Assembly (NCBI GenBank): GCA_944363755.1
Contig: CALVVC010000018.1
Coordinates: forward strand, 1-14,054
From: an uncultured Bacilli bacterium
GTDB lineage: Bacteria; Bacillota_I; Bacilli_A; RF39; UBA660
DNA length: 14,054 nt
Reading direction: 5' to 3'
Part shown: one piece after another, positions 876-9,406 of the stretch
Numbering within the stretch: position 1 is the stretch's first letter
Layout: each line of letters starts with the position of its first letter
Made by a program: the position numbers and the translations under genes
Notes under the pieces: model-generated
What the model was told of the DNA's origin: nothing
Databases searched by the model: none
The model's input: the letters and a program-made list of their open reading frames with translations, nothing else

Positions 876-999
876 AATTACTCCTCATTTCTTTTTAAGT
901 CTATCATAGGTAAATTTAAATATCAATATCTATAATTTTAGCCTATAATAATCTCCTATAAAATGGCAAAAATTACCATTAAAAACTTTGTATTTTTAA

Positions 1000-1026
1000 T
1001 TGTTATAAGATATATAATATGTTACT
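1000..1026 (+). promoter_or_regulatory. Candidate promoter of the small hydrophobic peptide gene
   Basis: TTGTTA at 1000-1005 is followed after 17 nt by TACTAT at 1023-1028 (first T at 1022 also usable). An alternative -10, TATAAT at 1013-1018, pairs with TTGTAT at 988-993 but with a 19-nt spacer. Either would give a 5' leader of roughly 50-70 nt before the peptide start at 1090. The area is AT-rich, so the exact boxes are uncertain. Confidence 0.4.
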
Positions 1027-1059
1027 ATATATCTAGGAATATTTAATAGTTGGGTAGAG

Positions 1060-1085
1060 CCTCTTTCATAATAGAGGGAGGTGAT
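1060..1085 (+). promoter_or_regulatory. RBS with adjacent sequestering hairpin
   Basis: A very strong ribosome binding site, GGGAGGTGAT, spans 1076-1085, 4 nt before the ATG at 1090. CCTCT at 1060-1064 can pair with AGAGG at 1073-1077 (8-nt loop), taking up the first two G bases of the RBS; CCTC can alternatively pair with GAGG at 1078-1081 inside it. Self-sequestered, unusually strong RBS regions are common in type I toxin mRNAs, whose translation must be held down. The pairing is seen directly; its function is inferred. Confidence 0.5.
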
Positions 1086-1089
1086 ATTA

Positions 1090-1173
1090 ATGAACAAGAA
1101 AGATTTTCTAATTTTTTCTTTAGTAATGATTATCTTCCTTTTACTATTCTTACTATTCATAGTATTAATATAA
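1090..1173 (+). CDS. 27-aa hydrophobic peptide, candidate type I toxin
   Basis: ATG at 1090, stop TAA at 1171-1173, 27 residues. The peptide begins MNKKDF and is otherwise almost entirely Ile/Leu/Phe/Val, so it is one membrane helix with a short positively charged start (inner face expected). The RBS is nearly perfect and the gene sits alone between two minus-strand genes. A good minus-strand promoter (1247-1218) points back over it, so an antisense RNA would cover the whole mRNA. A tiny membrane peptide, strong RBS and convergent antisense promoter are the marks of type I toxin-antitoxin loci (TxpA/RatA, BsrG/SR4, Fst kinds). It lacks the polar C-terminal tail of Fst and I cannot place it in a named family. 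Alternatives are a small regulatory membrane peptide or a fortuitous frame; the RBS argues against the latter. Confidence 0.6.
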   Translation: MNKKDFLIFSLVMIIFLLLFLLFIVLI

Positions 1174-1179
1174 AGGAAA

Positions 1180-1211
1180 ACTACCTAACTAACATATGTT
1201 GATTAGGTAGT
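1180..1211. other. Inverted repeat at the 3' end of the small peptide gene
   Basis: ACTACCTAA at 1180-1188 and TTAGGTAGT at 1203-1211 form a perfect 9-bp stem, with a further palindrome (AACATATGTT, 1191-1200) inside the loop. It starts 6 nt after the peptide stop codon. On the plus strand no U-run follows, so it is more likely an mRNA 3' stem. On the minus strand it would be the 5' stem-loop of the predicted antisense RNA. A shared stem-loop of this kind could start the contact between the two RNAs. Confidence 0.6.
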
Positions 1212-1217
1212 CTAACA

Positions 1218-1247
1218 ATAATACTAAAGGCTCACTCAACACGTCAA
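1218..1247 (-). promoter_or_regulatory. Promoter for a predicted antisense RNA
   Basis: On the minus strand TTGACG (1247-1242) is followed after 18 nt by TATTAT (1223-1218): 5/6 matches to the sigma-A -35 consensus and a good -10. Transcription would start near 1211, at the base of the inverted repeat, and run leftward across the complete peptide gene and its RBS. No open frame of note lies on that transcript, so it is best read as a non-coding antisense RNA (antitoxin). Confidence 0.55.
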
Positions 1248-1273
1248 TATTAAGTGTTCCTACTTTTTTATTT
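1238..1273 (+). terminator. Candidate terminator for the small peptide mRNA
   Basis: AACAC at 1238-1242 pairs with GTGTT at 1254-1258 (11-nt loop), followed by CCTAC and a run of six T, then ATTTTA. The stem is weak and 5 nt separate it from the T-run, so this is only a moderate candidate. It lies beyond the antisense promoter, so sense and antisense RNAs would overlap at their 3' and 5' parts respectively. Confidence 0.4.
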
Positions 1274-1315
1274 TATGCAAATTTCTTTTACATATTAATA
1301 GTATCATAAAATATT

Positions 1316-1337
1316 TAAAAATTCAATACATACTGAA
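1316..1337 (-). terminator. Terminator after the PHP-domain gene
   Basis: On the minus strand TTCAGTA (1337-1331) pairs with TATTGAA (1328-1322) through one G-U pair, followed immediately by a run of T (1321-1317). It lies about 10 nt beyond the PHP-domain gene stop codon. Confidence 0.55.
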
Positions 1338-4552: not shown

Positions 4553-4578
4553 AAGCGATTTTAGACATAAAAACGCTT
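4553..4578. promoter_or_regulatory. Second inverted repeat in the AbiE promoter region (candidate operator)
   Basis: AAGCG (4553-4557) and CGCTT (4574-4578) pair. Inside them, TTTT (4559-4562) and AAAA (4569-4572) continue the stem after one A-A mismatch, so 9 of 10 pairs match. The right arm overlaps the -35 box. AbiEi antitoxins are known to bind two inverted repeats in their own promoter, which this arrangement would suit. Confidence 0.45.
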
Positions 4579-4605
4579 GATTTTCACCGGTTTTTATCAT
4601 ATAAT
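4577..4605 (+). promoter_or_regulatory. Promoter of the AbiE operon
   Basis: TTGATT (4577-4582), exactly 17 nt, TATAAT (4600-4605). The -10 is a perfect consensus match. Transcription should begin near 4612, leaving a leader of about 13 nt that consists almost wholly of the RBS (AGAGGTGA, 4613-4620). Confidence 0.8.
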
Positions 4606-4613
4606 GATAAAAA
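4591..4613. promoter_or_regulatory. Palindromic operator covering the AbiE -10 box
   Basis: TTTTTATCA (4591-4599) and TGATAAAAA (4605-4613) are perfect 9-bp inverted arms separated by 5 nt, centred on the -10 box. A DNA-binding protein here would block RNA polymerase directly. The AbiEi product has a winged helix-turn-helix and AbiEi proteins are known to repress their own operons, so it is the obvious candidate ligand. The palindrome is seen; binding is inferred. Confidence 0.65.
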
Positions 4614-4624
4614 GAGGTGAAAAT

Positions 4625-5215
4625 ATGATAATAACAAGTGATATAGCAAAACAATATTTAGCAAAATATTCTAATAAAAATACTAGATTATCTAGAGATG
4701 TTAGAGATGGAAAACTAATCAAGATAAGAAATGGTTTATATGAAACTGAGGCAAATACTCCTTCATATTTACTAGCTGGAAGTATTTATGGTCCATCATA
4801 CATATCTTTTGAATATGCACTTTCCTATTATGGATTAATTCCAGAAAGAGTGACTACTATAACTTGTGCTACTTTTAATAAGAGAAAGAAAAAAAAATAT
4901 GATACTCCATTTGGTACATTTACTTATAGAGATGTTCCATTATTAGCATATCCAGAAGAGATAATTTTAAAAGAAGAAAATAATTATTCATATCAAATAG
5001 CAACTCCTGAAAAAGCTTTATGCGATAAATTATATACATTAAAATCATTAAAAAATTATTCTAATTTAGAAAAGATGTTATTTGAAGATTTACGCATAGA
5101 TATAGAAGAGTTTAAAACCTTAAACACTGAAAAAATAGAAAAACTAAGTAATTTATATCATTCAAAAAATATAGTATTACTTGCAAAATATAAAAGGAGG
5201 AAAAATGATGAATAA
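4625..5215 (+). CDS. abiEi: AbiEi-type antitoxin / transcriptional repressor (type IV TA)
   Basis: A 196-aa protein with an N-terminal winged helix-turn-helix (about residues 5-42: TSDIAKQYL, LSRDVRDGKLIKIRNGLYE) and the AbiEi C-terminal domain, including the diagnostic PSYISFEYALSYYGLIPE and ATPEKALCDKLY segments. It counters the AbiEii toxin without stable complex formation in characterised homologues, and represses the operon through the N-terminal domain. ATG 4625 is used because AGAGGTGA lies 5 nt before it; an upstream in-frame start at 4577 would fall inside the -35 box. It overlaps the toxin gene by 8 nt, ensuring coupled synthesis. The length fits the family (about 200 aa) and nothing is missing, so it should be functional. 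Confidence 0.9.
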   Translation: MIITSDIAKQYLAKYSNKNTRLSRDVRDGKLIKIRNGLYETEANTPSYLLAGSIYGPSYISFEYALSYYGLIPERVTTITCATFNKRKKKKYDTPFGTFTYRDVPLLAYPEEIILKEENNYSYQIATPEKALCDKLYTLKSLKNYSNLEKMLFEDLRIDIEEFKTLNTEKIEKLSNLYHSKNIVLLAKYKRRKNDE

Positions 5216-6068
5216 TATAATAGAACAAATGCTTTCAAAATATGAAATAAAAAATGTTACTGATGAAATAAATGCTTTAAAAGAAATTATTCAAGAAATA
5301 GTATTATTAGGATTATCTAGGAGTGGATTTTTTGATAAGGCAGCCTTTTATGGAGGAACTGCTTTAAGAATTTTTTATAAGTTAGATAGATTTTCAGAAG
5401 ATTTAGATTTTGCCCTAATCTCCCCTAATAAAGATTTTGATTTAAGTAAATATTTTAGTTATATAGAAAAAGAACTTAAAGCCTATGGATTAAATATGGA
5501 AGTTAATACTAAACAAAAAAGTATATCTTCTAATATAACTTCTGCTTTTGTAAAAGGGGATACATTAGAACATATCTTAAAATTTTTTCCTAATGAAGAA
5601 AGCCATAATTATAATCATATCTTAAAAAAAATTAAAATAAAATTCGAAGTTGATATTAACCCACCAGACAGTGCTACTTATGAAGACGTATATAAATTAC
5701 TACCAAGTCCCCATCAAATTAAACTATATGATAAAGAATCTTTATTTGCTAGTAAAATTCATGCTATTCTATGTAGGAACTGGAAAACAAGAACTAAAGG
5801 AAGAGATTTATATGACTATATATTTTTTCTAGCCAATAATACAAAAGTTAATTTAGAACTTTTAAAGAATAAATTAATTGCATCAAATTATATAGATGCT
5901 AATAGTAAATTTGATATAAATATACTAAAAGAATTATTAATTAAGAAATTTGAAATAATTGATTATGAGGAAACAAAAGAAGATGTAATATCATTTATTA
6001 AAAATGTAGAAAGTTTAACTATGTGGAATAGAGATTTTTTTATCAGTATTACTGAAAAACTAAATTAA
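5208..6068 (+). CDS. abiEii: AbiEii-type nucleotidyltransferase toxin (type IV TA, abortive infection)
   Basis: A 286-aa nucleotidyltransferase of the AbiEii/AbiGii family. Motif I is YGGTALR (48-54) followed by SEDLDF (63-68), the GG...DxD nucleotide- and metal-binding core. KFEVDI near 144-149 supplies the third acidic residue. KESLFASKIHAIL and KGRDLYD (197-203) are the conserved C-terminal motifs. Family members transfer nucleotides to targets such as tRNA (shown for MenT relatives), causing growth arrest that limits phage spread. AGGAGG ends at 5200; ATG 5205 and ATG 5208 are both possible, and 5208 has the better spacing (7 nt). All catalytic motifs are intact and the length is normal, so the toxin looks active. 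It is encoded last in its operon and followed by a strong terminator. Confidence 0.92.
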   Translation: MNNIIEQMLSKYEIKNVTDEINALKEIIQEIVLLGLSRSGFFDKAAFYGGTALRIFYKLDRFSEDLDFALISPNKDFDLSKYFSYIEKELKAYGLNMEVNTKQKSISSNITSAFVKGDTLEHILKFFPNEESHNYNHILKKIKIKFEVDINPPDSATYEDVYKLLPSPHQIKLYDKESLFASKIHAILCRNWKTRTKGRDLYDYIFFLANNTKVNLELLKNKLIASNYIDANSKFDINILKELLIKKFEIIDYEETKEDVISFIKNVESLTMWNRDFFISITEKLN

Positions 6069-6163: not shown

Positions 6164-7582
6164 ATGCTTAGAGATGAGATTAAGAAAGCTTTTGGTAATG
6201 CCACTGATTTAATAGTTAGACCTTTTATTATCGATAATAGAGAAATCACTTTAGTCATGAGTGAAGTTTTAGGTAGTTCAAGTTATGTTAATGATTTTAT
6301 TTTAAGACGACTTTTAACTATTAAGTTTCAAAGTGATGATATAGGAAGTGAACTTCTTAACTTTATTCCTACTAATAATGGAAAAATACTAAATAAATTA
6401 AGTGATATGACAGACTATATTTGTATGGGCTTTGCCCTTCTTCTTTTTAGTAATGAAGAAGCGATAGCGATTGAAGCAAGGGCTACTGTTGATAGAGGTA
6501 TTCCTCTTGTTAGTAATGAATCTAGTATAACAGGCAGTAAAGATGCTTTTAATGAAAATTTTAATACAAATATTGGTCTTATTAGAAGAAGAATAAGAGA
6601 TGCTAATTTATATGTAGATGGAATGTTTATAGGTAAATCTAGTAAGACTAAGATTGGTATTTTATATATGAATAATATTGTAATTAAGGATAATGTAAAA
6701 AAAATAAAGAATAAACTAAATAAAATTAATGTAGATGGTATTATTGATGTTGGTAGCTTAAAGACTTATTTAGATAGTAAGACTAATTTTTTCTTTCCAA
6801 CAATTACTTCAACTGAGCGTCCTGATAAAGTTAGTCAAGCTCTACTTGAAGGTAAAATTGCTATTGTCGCTGATAATTCTCCTTATGTTTTAATTATGCC
6901 TACTTTCTTTGTTGATTATTTGCATACTAGTGATGATTATTATGAGAAAGCTATTAATACGTCTTTTATTAGAATAATTAGATTCCTTGCTTTTCTAATA
7001 TCTATTTTTACTCCAGCTTTATATATCGCTCTAACTACTCATAATCAAGATATTTTATCGCTTCCTTTATTTTTAAATTTTTTAGAACAAAGAAGTACTG
7101 TCCCCTTCTCAGCTTTAATTGAAGCTTTATTTATGAGTATATCTTTTGAAATACTAAGAGAAAGTGATATTAGAAAGCCAGCTAGTATGGGAACATCCGT
7201 ATCAATACTTGGTGGTTTAATCTTAGGAGATGCGGCAGTATCAGCAGGTATCATCTCCCCAATTATGATTATAGTTATATCGATATCAGCAATATCAGGT
7301 CTTGCTTTTTCATCAGTTGAAATGATTTATGCCCTTAGATGGTGGAGATTTATTATGATGTTTCTTGCTATGTTCTTTGGATTATTTGGAATATTTACAG
7401 GTTTTATAATTTTACTTTCATCTTTAGTTACAACATCTTCTTTATCTGTTCCTTATACTGCACCGTTTTCTCCTTTTATAAAAGAAGAAATTAAAGATAC
7501 TATTATTAAAGGAAATCATAAAAAAATAAGATATAGAAATCCCTTACTTACAAAAAATAAAATTAGGGAGCAAGATTTATGA
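6164..7582 (+). CDS. gerKA: Spore germination protein, GerA-family receptor A subunit
   Basis: A 472-aa A subunit of a germinant receptor, located in the spore inner membrane, where A, B and C subunits together sense small nutrients. The N-terminal half is soluble (about 1-265) and contains the family hallmark STERPDKVSQALLEGKIAIVADNSP region (from about residue 215) followed by VLIMPTFFVDY. The C-terminal half has about five to six membrane helices, including FLISIFTPALYIAL, GGLILGDAAV and a run of aromatic-rich helices ending near residue 445. Length is near the family norm (460-520). RBS GAGGTGA lies 4 nt from the ATG. It is the first gene of an A-C-B operon; that order matches B. subtilis gerK, which is why I use this symbol, though the specific receptor class cannot be assigned. 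Its stop overlaps the next start (ATGA). Confidence 0.93.
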   Translation: MLRDEIKKAFGNATDLIVRPFIIDNREITLVMSEVLGSSSYVNDFILRRLLTIKFQSDDIGSELLNFIPTNNGKILNKLSDMTDYICMGFALLLFSNEEAIAIEARATVDRGIPLVSNESSITGSKDAFNENFNTNIGLIRRRIRDANLYVDGMFIGKSSKTKIGILYMNNIVIKDNVKKIKNKLNKINVDGIIDVGSLKTYLDSKTNFFFPTITSTERPDKVSQALLEGKIAIVADNSPYVLIMPTFFVDYLHTSDDYYEKAINTSFIRIIRFLAFLISIFTPALYIALTTHNQDILSLPLFLNFLEQRSTVPFSALIEALFMSISFEILRESDIRKPASMGTSVSILGGLILGDAAVSAGIISPIMIIVISISAISGLAFSSVEMIYALRWWRFIMMFLAMFFGLFGIFTGFIILLSSLVTTSSLSVPYTAPFSPFIKEEIKDTIIKGNHKKIRYRNPLLTKNKIREQDL

Positions 7583-8541
7583 AGAAGATAATTATATTAT
7601 TAATTGTACTATTAATATTCTTAGGTTTTACTCCTTATAATGAATTAAATAGTCTTGCTGTTGTTGATACTTTAGGTATAGAATTTAAAAATAATAAATA
7701 CTCTCTTTACTTAAATGTTATTAATGATGATAATAAAGTTTATAATGTTAAAGGTGATAGTTTAGGAGAAGTATTTTTAAAAGCTAAGAATGTTAATAAT
7801 AAAAAAACTTATTATAAGCATTTAGAAGTAGTTATTTTAAATACTAATGTTATAAATAATAAAACTCTTAATTTTTTTAAAGATGAATTTACTTCTATTG
7901 ACTACTTAGTTTTAGGAACAGAAGATAATTTAGATGATTTATTCAAAAAATATCATAAACGTAATGATTATAAAAGCTTTATAAAAAAAGAAAAAGAGGA
8001 AAGTGCTAGTATTATTAATGTTACTTTTAAAGAATTTCTAAGTAGTAGTTTAGATGATATTAAGAATGCTAGTATCCCACTTATTAGTTATAAAGAAAAT
8101 TTAATTAGTAAAGGTATTTATATTCCTTATTTAAAAATTACTTTAGGAAAAAACTTAGCAAAAACTAATTATTTAATTAATAATAAAATTGATACTTTTA
8201 ATACAAAAGTAAATTTAAATGATAATAGTTATGAAGTAAGTGTATATGATTTAAAATCACGCATAAATTACAAAAATAATATTATTAATATAAAAATTGA
8301 AGGTAAAATTGATAGTCCTGATAGTGAAGATTTAAAAGAGTTAAAAAAGATAGTTATTAAAGATTTGAATGATAATATTTTAGAATTAATTAATAATGAA
8401 AGAAAAAATAACTATAATATTTCTAATGTTATTAATTATATTTATTTAAAAACAAGAGAAGTTAATTATGATACATATAAAAAAGCTAATATAGATGTTA
8501 ATATTACTTTAAAGGAGGAGGAGAAAAATAATTATGGTTAA
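7579..8541 (+). CDS. gerKC: Spore germination protein, GerC-family subunit lacking the lipobox cysteine
   Basis: A 320-aa GerC-family protein (family norm about 360-400), the normally lipid-anchored outer subunit of the receptor. After a hydrophobic N-terminal segment (residues 4-17) it has PYNELNSLAVVDTLGIE, the conserved GerC start usually written (G)CWDxxELNxLAIVxxxGID. At the point where the lipoprotein cysteine belongs, the sequence reads LGF: residue 17 is Phe (TTT) and not Cys. There is no cysteine anywhere in the protein. It therefore cannot be diacylated; it may stay attached by the uncleaved helix. The C-terminal domain (about 170-310: KGIYIPYLKIT, IKIEGKI) fits the family though shortened. 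It overlaps gerA by 4 nt and gerB by 8 nt. The family call depends mainly on the N-terminal motif and operon position. Confidence 0.82.
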   Translation: MKKIIILLIVLLIFLGFTPYNELNSLAVVDTLGIEFKNNKYSLYLNVINDDNKVYNVKGDSLGEVFLKAKNVNNKKTYYKHLEVVILNTNVINNKTLNFFKDEFTSIDYLVLGTEDNLDDLFKKYHKRNDYKSFIKKEKEESASIINVTFKEFLSSSLDDIKNASIPLISYKENLISKGIYIPYLKITLGKNLAKTNYLINNKIDTFNTKVNLNDNSYEVSVYDLKSRINYKNNIINIKIEGKIDSPDSEDLKELKKIVIKDLNDNILELINNERKNNYNISNVINYIYLKTREVNYDTYKKANIDVNITLKEEEKNNYG

Positions 8542-9406
8542 TAAAAAAATAGGCCTATTACAACTAGCTAGTTTAACTTTCTTTTTGACTACTTCTTCCT
8601 TTCCTCTTTTTATTGAAAAGATTATTAATATAAGTAAAGAAGATACTATTATTAGTATTATATTAGGTAGTGTTTTAGTTATACTTTTATTTAAAGTTAT
8701 TTTAAAAATAAGAAAATCTTTAAAAGTAGAAAAAAAATCTTTAAAAATCATAATATCTTTAGTTTATCTAAGTTTTTTTATCTATTTAATAATAGAAAGT
8801 ACTAACTTTATTAAAAGTTCTTTTTTAACTAGTGGTAATTTTTATAGTATTCTTATTCTTCTTTTATTAATGTGTTTAGTAGCTTCTAATAAGAGTTTTA
8901 AAGAACTTACTAGTCTTTCTTTAATTCTAAGTTTTATTTTTATACCTTTATTTATTATTAATATTATAGGAAGCAGCTTTAGTTTAGATTTAACTTATTT
9001 AAGAGTTCCCTTTAGTAATAGTATTTTAAGTATAGTTAAAGGTAGTATCTTATTCTTTACTTATGAAATTATTCCTCTTACTTTACTATTATTTATTCCA
9101 TATAAAGAAATAGATGGTAAGAAAAAACAAGATAAATATTTATATCTTGCTTTAATTGTTGGTATTTTAGTCATATTAATTCAATATTTATTATTATATT
9201 TTTCTAGTAGTATTAATCTCTTAACTAATTATAACTATCCTTTTATGTTAGTTATTAATAGTCTATCTAGTACCTTTCTTTTAGGTAGACTAAGTTATAT
9301 TATAAGCTTTTACTTACTATTTTCACTACTGATTACTTTATCTTTAATTATTTGTATTATTAAGCAGTTAATTTGGAACAAGTATACCCTAAAGACTCAA
9401 GATTAG
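8534..9406 (+). CDS. gerKB: Spore germination protein, GerB-family transporter-like subunit, possibly C-terminally shortened
   Basis: A 290-aa integral membrane protein, APC-superfamily fold, serving as the membrane core of the germinant receptor. It opens with KIGLLQLASLTFFL, equivalent to the GerB start (IS..Q...), and has about eight hydrophobic segments: roughly 5-26, 38-58, 70-93, 102-118, 126-148, 160-190, 200-225 and 235-278. The conserved late motif around an arginine is present as LLGRLSYIISFYLLF (R252). GerB proteins are usually about 360 aa with ten helices, so the last one or two appear missing. Translation starts at ATG 8534 after a long purine RBS (AAAGGAGGAGGAG, 8511-8523) inside gerC. 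The end overlaps the convergent gene at 9360 by 47 nt. Either the line has a short GerB or this end was cut by a rearrangement. Confidence 0.82.
   Translation: MVNKKIGLLQLASLTFFLTTSSFPLFIEKIINISKEDTIISIILGSVLVILLFKVILKIRKSLKVEKKSLKIIISLVYLSFFIYLIIESTNFIKSSFLTSGNFYSILILLLLMCLVASNKSFKELTSLSLILSFIFIPLFIINIIGSSFSLDLTYLRVPFSNSILSIVKGSILFFTYEIIPLTLLLFIPYKEIDGKKKQDKYLYLALIVGILVILIQYLLLYFSSSINLLTNYNYPFMLVINSLSSTFLLGRLSYIISFYLLFSLLITLSLIICIIKQLIWNKYTLKTQD

Follow-up and report, generated by a model that had tools for sequence, protein, structure and literature searches.

A short interval between two minus-strand genes of an uncultured Bacilli bacterium very probably holds one member of a type I toxin-antitoxin family that occurs in many copies, as judged from the sequence of this locus and of its relatives. 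The window, by which we mean the whole stretch of 14,054 nucleotides that was analysed, carries in this interval a plus-strand open reading frame (ORF) of 27 codons that is a toxin candidate. The original prediction had proposed a type I arrangement here; that interpretation is partly supported, and the likely antisense start, antisense promoter and region covered differ from those it proposed. The promoter of the toxin mRNA, the pairing of the mRNA ends and the existence of many copies go beyond it.

Parts of the locus

The toxin candidate lies at 1090–1173 (plus strand) and encodes a peptide, MNKKDFLIFSLVMIIFLLLFLLFIVLI, with a single hydrophobic stretch. It is preceded by a very strong Shine–Dalgarno (SD) sequence, AGGGAGGTGAT, at 1075–1085, which is partly masked by a hairpin at 1060–1077 formed by CCTCT (1060–1064) and AGAGG (1073–1077), and it is followed, right after the stop codon, by an inverted repeat that forms a stem-loop at 1180–1211. 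The ORF, the partly paired ribosome-binding site and the post-stop stem-loop had all been predicted from the window, and each was confirmed.

The putative toxin mRNA promoter occupies 1000–1028 on the plus strand, with −35 TTGTTA (1000–1005), a 17-nt spacer, −10 TACTAT (1023–1028) and a TG extension (1020–1021), giving a predicted RNA start at about 1035. The mRNA would open with a 5′ arm (1035–1062), whose partner is a 3′ arm at 1229–1261 that can also form a weak local hairpin, and would end at a T-rich run (1264–1274) that is its probable 3′ end, for a predicted full length of about 235 nt.

Converging on it, a putative antisense promoter lies on the minus strand at 1298–1326 (−35 TTGAAT at 1326–1321, 17-nt spacer, −10 TACTAT at 1303–1298, with a TG extension). 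The predicted antisense RNA is about 120 nt long (1171–1291, minus strand); it may begin with a hairpin at 1275–1293 (ATGTAAAAGAAATTTGCAT), for which the C1 copy has a matching change in both strands of the stem, and its probable terminator is the post-stop stem-loop, which has a T-rich minus-strand tail at 1179–1172. With ends predicted from promoters and terminators, the two transcripts would overlap by about 95–105 nt, at 1172–1275, within the mRNA 3′ UTR. A covariance model of the antisense module, R1, matches the window at 1171–1330 on the minus strand.

About 20 nt upstream of the toxin −35, most copies from the genus carry a palindrome, TTACGAAAATTCGTAA (L009, 204–219), that may be an operator or an upstream terminator; other palindromes replace it in the window copy and in another clade. 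Elsewhere in the window, the minus-strand gene at 1345–2100 resembles, on visual inspection, the C-terminal part of a PHP-type phosphoesterase (Pfam gave no match for the 251-aa piece), the N-terminus of which seems to lie in another frame near 2165 (region 1345–2235), which suggests either an assembly error or a pseudogene. A probable type IV toxin-antitoxin pair is found at 4577–6068, where the gene before an AbiEii nucleotidyltransferase (Pfam E = 6.6e-29) has no Pfam match but probably encodes AbiEi, as judged by eye. A gerA-type germinant receptor operon follows at 6164–9406, with GerA and GerAC_N above the Pfam cut-off and a permease below it; the source organism is probably a spore former.

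Copies, peptides and loss of the candidate toxin ORF

In the same genome the peptide has nine matches at E ≤ 10. One is an identical peptide encoded on another contig, and others form two tandem pairs with a spacing of about 430 bp; six copies could be aligned over about 350 nt. Two weak peptide matches were left uncounted: one (C19:3790) lies in a decayed copy and the other (C53) looks like a different small ORF. Searched with R1, the assembly (1.09 Mb, 85% complete) gave 21 antisense-module matches at E < 1e-5, of which 17 have an intact hydrophobic ORF, one has lost its start codon, two are cut by contig ends and one is decayed.

Within the genus, the peptide was matched (E ≤ 0.01) in 30 of 35 genomes and R1 in all 35, the source genome included in both, with 1–27 R1 matches each and 539 in sum; matches per genome are lower bounds, the candidates scored per genome being 48 for the genus, 15 for the taxonomic family, 10 for the order and 9 for the class. 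R1 matched 0 of 25 genomes outside the genus in a first sample, an apparent restriction that searches of the family and order overturned. In the family sample, 135 of 193 genomes and 108 of 148 genera had a match at E ≤ 0.001 and 58 genomes had none; at the same threshold the order sample gave matches in 219 of 288 genomes and 81 of 102 genera, every order genome listed belonging to this one family. In the class sample, 34 of 296 genomes were matched at E ≤ 0.01, 26 of them within the family. Seven matches outside it, at E 0.001–0.01, were treated as background. The one strong match beyond the family (genome G544, E = 1.2e-14) adjoins a contig end; this lone copy (L369) encodes what appears by eye to be a KTKTF-like peptide, and horizontal transfer or a binning error could account for it.

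A pattern scan of contigs yielded at least 111 stretches, and the matches listed came mostly from uncultured Bacilli, Tenericutes or Mollicutes, with animal guts a frequent origin; Candidatus Onthousia faecipullorum is one source among them. Copies also occur in tandem arrays of three and four units (L059 and L258), and one locus (L211) has three 5′ arms in a row. Phages and plasmids, queried with window positions 985–1335, and viral contigs, queried with two 5′-arm patterns, gave no match.

The collection of 316 non-identical copies comprised 268 of full length, 25 without the 5′ side, 21 without the 3′ side and two without both. Among the full copies, 237 ORFs of 22–33 aa were recognised, representing 154 distinct peptides, and ten more were intact by inspection. 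Such lengths suit a type I toxin, for which genes code for hydrophobic peptides of fewer than about 60 residues. The source genome alone has at least five unlike peptide classes on a common RNA frame. In every class (KKDFLI-type, which includes the window peptide, FLQ-type, KTKTF-type, KLEK/KIEK-type and KREKSFF-type) the peptide is short and joins a charged N-terminus to a single long hydrophobic stretch. Across 76 disjoint ORF pairs, in which orthologues and paralogues are mixed, dN/dS was 0.21 (0.17–0.25) in the peptide frame and 0.69 and 2.66 in the other two; by this measure the peptide is under purifying selection.

The peptide had originally been assigned to no known toxin family, and the library searches agree. 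The window peptide had no match in Pfam or NCBIfam at E ≤ 1 and seven further peptides stayed below the curated cut-offs; PADLOC and PHROGs (four peptides) and PDB (window peptide only) gave no significant match, and an Rfam scan of 850–1400 returned nothing at the gathering score. Weak library matches (E 0.04–0.83), to unrelated families, were put down to chance.

We compared the fate of the ORF with that of the antisense promoter. An intact hydrophobic ORF is present in 247 full copies, an altered one in two and a broken one in 19, where the start codon is lost or there is a frameshift, an interruption or general decay; these totals include 31 copies that failed the ORF filter and were sorted by eye into ten intact, two altered and 19 broken, some of the ten intact ones having a poor ribosome site. 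All 19 copies with a broken ORF have a strong antisense promoter (16 by the strict motif, three by a score of at least 11/14), as do one of the two altered copies and 241 of the 247 intact ones (232 by strict motif, nine by a score of at least 11). Shuffled sequences reach the strict motif in 1% and a score of at least 11/14 in 2%; a looser score of at least 9 is reached by 33% of shuffles, and the stricter measures were therefore used. The six remaining intact-ORF copies score weak. A contig end truncates L104; L046, truncated by the limit of the fetched stretch, has the motif when extended; and L217 carries TTGATA-N16-TATAAT as a promoter-like replacement. The antisense promoters of L205 and L188 are weaker, and only in L027, whose antisense −10 is altered, does an intact ORF clearly stand beside a damaged antisense promoter.

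Truncations that lie away from the ends of the fetched stretches left only the antisense (3′) part in 21 copies, although some of these alignments reflect limits of the model (L295 still has its 5′ arm, and L091 and L180 their ORF), and only the toxin (5′) part in two, one with a cut ORF and one with none; the two copies truncated at both sides are in neither count. Loss of the toxin side is thus commoner than loss of the antisense side, in a collection assembled by three routes (ORF, antisense model and 5′-arm pattern), of which only the antisense model favours antisense-side remnants whereas the other two favour toxin-side remnants.

Purifying selection and one hydrophobic stretch would suit any small membrane protein, and the locus might accordingly encode an antisense-regulated, non-toxic one, a regulator or a complex subunit, its dose set by the same RNA apparatus. 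We consider this unlikely. Up to 27 matches per genome and the tandem arrays suit a toxin better than a conserved subunit, as do the presence of no fewer than five unlike peptide classes in a single genome and the repeated loss of the ORF from copies that retain the antisense promoter.

A second small hydrophobic ORF (MNKNNDNRKDNLIF...) was noticed in L012 at 624–719 on the minus strand (C53:6426–6518 of the source genome) and in L371–L376; it adjoins an apparent CRISPR array. Its copy in the source genome has complementary flanks, AAGCATCTAAT and ATTAGATGCTT. The ORF is not matched by R1, occurs in six of 40 relatives searched, the source genome included, and may belong to a further type I system; C. 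difficile is described as having such systems next to CRISPR arrays (PMC7699646).

Conserved RNA pairing and predicted transcription signals

On both strands the locus folds more stably than its dinucleotide shuffles: z is −4.7 over 1040–1275 (plus) and −3.8 over 980–1212 (minus). For comparison across the toxin-antitoxin family, copies were grouped into 59 clusters at 90% identity, seven of which were dropped as truncated or decayed, leaving 52 aligned representatives. RNAalifold gave 21 consensus pairs, 18 with changes on both sides. Standard pairs fill 96.4% of the cells over these pairs, against 32–50% when partners are slid by 1–3 columns, and the covariation score is 0.466, against at most 0.126 for slid partners and with 0 of 500 shuffles reaching it; the pairs counted were taken from the consensus structure itself, a bias in its favour, but the gap is still large.

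Consistent with pairing between the mRNA ends, the mean energy of cognate 5′ and 3′ arms is −33.7 kcal/mol, compared with −20.0 for arms exchanged between copies less than 45% identical and −11.8 for shuffled arms. The cognate pairing is the stronger in 1,517 of 1,534 comparisons between copies less than 50% identical. In copies from other genera the duplexes mostly reach −35 to −50 kcal/mol, against about −16 to −28 when shuffled (values read row by row, the row for L343 being invalid). An alternative partner for the 5′ arm is the 5′ strand of the post-stop stem-loop (−17.4 versus −11.7 kcal/mol non-cognate, cognate stronger in 1,437 of 1,534), a hint that the mRNA may alternate between two folds. 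Pairing of the mRNA leader with the antisense stem-loop differs less between cognate and non-cognate partners (−21.6 versus −17.6 kcal/mol, cognate stronger in 1,135 of 1,534), and a second contact between the antisense RNA and the leader is only weakly suggested. Among 16 copies from the source genome, 240 non-cognate pairings of antisense RNA with 3′ UTR had a median of 26% of the cognate energy and none exceeded 80%, so these copies look mutually insulated.

Two of the three consensus pairs of the SD hairpin have changes on both sides and 89% of cells are paired, and the mean unpaired probability of the SD is 0.21, versus 0.31 with flanks shuffled, a modest excess of occlusion; values below 0.3 occur in 34 of 51 copies and in 51% of controls.

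Conservation extends to the promoters on either side. The sense promoter stands directly upstream of the 5′ arm, mostly with a 17-nt spacing, and has the TG extension in 43 of 52 representatives and lacks it in nine. Beyond the 3′ arm, the minus-strand motif TGnTAnnnT is invariant in the 52 aligned representatives. Of 63 antisense matches from other genera, 12 had no ORF that passed the filter; among the 51 intact-ORF copies, 50 have TTG-N16..18-TGnTAnnnT, a pattern found in about 1% of shuffled genus copies (mononucleotide shuffles, as in the other controls for the sense and antisense promoters). Together with the SD hairpin, the antisense promoter at 1326–1298 is among the features conserved across homologues.

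Many copies, dispersed and tandem, with arms that resemble imperfect terminal inverted repeats, might also describe a selfish, MITE-like DNA repeat in which the ORF is incidental. Three observations make this very improbable: conservation passes both arms into both promoters, and the unit does not end at the inverted repeats; the arm pairs change through G-U states (for example, CG 21, UG 20 and UA 11 at one pair), as in RNA pairing; and the peptide has a dN/dS of 0.21.

The tail of the post-stop stem-loop is T-rich on one strand. On the minus strand it has a mean of 5.6 T in 10 nt, with at least five in 31 of the 40 copies that have enough tail, and on the plus strand a mean of 2.1, with at least five in one of 52 copies. 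This asymmetry indicates that the stem-loop is most likely an antisense terminator and, with the conserved minus-strand promoter, it predicts an antisense RNA that runs from about 1291 to the stop codon, over the mRNA 3′ UTR. The 16 nt beyond the 3′ arm contain a mean of 10.5 T across the family and are the probable mRNA 3′ end.

The original prediction had placed the antisense start at 1211, downstream of TTGACG-N18-TATTAT (1247–1218, minus strand), with a transcript covering the gene. The motif is present, scoring 10/12, and compared by eye it is kept in five of six orthologous loci, window included (same left-hand gene, 91–93% identity); on that account we dropped the idea that it is spurious, and it may be a local secondary promoter. 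The scanned stretch has nine promoter-like sites, against 7.1 ± 2.7 in shuffles, a count within chance, so the motif does not stand out by number. As the source of the antisense RNA it is hardly credible: a promoter scoring at least 10/12 occupies this position in only 10 of 163 scorable family copies, whereas that at 1326–1298 is conserved family-wide, and an RNA from 1211 would open with the probable terminator stem-loop.

Proposed mechanism and relation to known type I systems

We propose that the promoter at 1000–1028 would drive a short mRNA for a 27-residue, single-helix membrane peptide. In the completed mRNA the ends would pair (1035–1062 with 1229–1261) and the SD would sit partly in its local hairpin; as a result, little peptide would be made from the full-length transcript. 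The convergent promoter (1326–1298) would produce the antisense RNA of about 120 nt, terminated at the post-stop stem-loop; being fully complementary to the mRNA 3′ UTR, it would pair there and either lock up the mRNA or have it degraded, probably by RNase III, keeping the peptide off. If the antisense supply failed or the mRNA 3′ end were trimmed, translation could follow, and the released peptide would insert into the membrane and depolarise it, as reported for many membrane type I toxins (PMC8309996). By analogy with BsrG/SR4, TxpA/RatA and AapA/IsoA, the mRNA is most likely kept silent both by its internal folding and by the antisense RNA.

Toxin mRNA and antisense RNA of TxpA/RatA and BsrG/SR4 are described as overlapping at their 3′ ends by about 75 and 120 nt, respectively, with the bsrG ribosome-binding site in a stem (PMC4147584). 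The overlap predicted here (about 95–105 nt) would be of the same kind. The present loci differ in the length of the peptide (27 aa in the window, 59 aa in TxpA), in the additional conserved pairing of the mRNA ends, in their many copies and in a peptide without a Pfam or NCBIfam match, kinship being judged by family libraries. Fst and RNA I-RNA II of pAD1 are converging RNAs with a common terminator region and an overlap outside the coding region (PMC4147584). Convergence, a shared terminator region and an overlap outside the coding region are likewise predicted here; unlike Fst, the peptide has no Pfam or NCBIfam match, and a second antisense-leader contact is only faintly indicated. Pfam and NCBIfam hold Fst models. 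Because the family libraries gave no kinship of the toxin, we claim no membership in the TxpA, BsrG or Fst families and regard the locus as representing a new family of type I-like systems.

The mRNA fold resembles that described for AapA/IsoA of Helicobacter pylori, a system with several chromosomal copies in which long-distance 5′-3′ pairing and SD hairpins keep the full-length mRNA inert (PMC6733600). By that description the two share pairing of the mRNA ends (supported here by covariation and energy), an SD hairpin and several copies. Repeated or tandem loci for tiny toxins with an RNA antitoxin are also a likeness to Ibs/Sib and Zor/Orz of Escherichia coli, by their descriptions, which give five ibs copies (PMC4147584) and tandem zor/orz as well as antitoxin-only loci (PMC11264685). 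Copy number and peptide variety look larger in the present family, and its predicted antisense RNA lies at the 3′ end, unlike in those two systems. From IsoA, too, it would differ in antisense position, which here is predicted over the 3′ UTR. Published work mentions type I systems in Tenericutes (PMC12390103); a search of the literature on RF39, uncultured bacteria and Mollicutes, with most subscription papers beyond its scope, found no report of a type I toxin-antitoxin system.

Tentatively, we suggest that the RNA frame (facing promoters, end pairing, SD hairpin and antisense terminator) is an exchangeable cassette that carries at least five unlike membrane peptides and gives this lineage of uncultured Bacilli 20 or more mutually insulated toxin-antitoxin loci per genome of about 1–1.5 Mb. 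Arm-by-arm divergence would make each antisense RNA fit its own mRNA only, and antisense-only remnants may persist as anti-addiction RNAs.

With hundreds of natural copies, clear covariation, and both live and dead toxin candidates, the essential RNA pairings of such a system could be read from sequence. R1 provides a search model for loci whose peptides are too short or too varied for the protein libraries tried. The family could show how cognate specificity persists among paralogues, and it bears on why a small genome keeps some twenty such loci.
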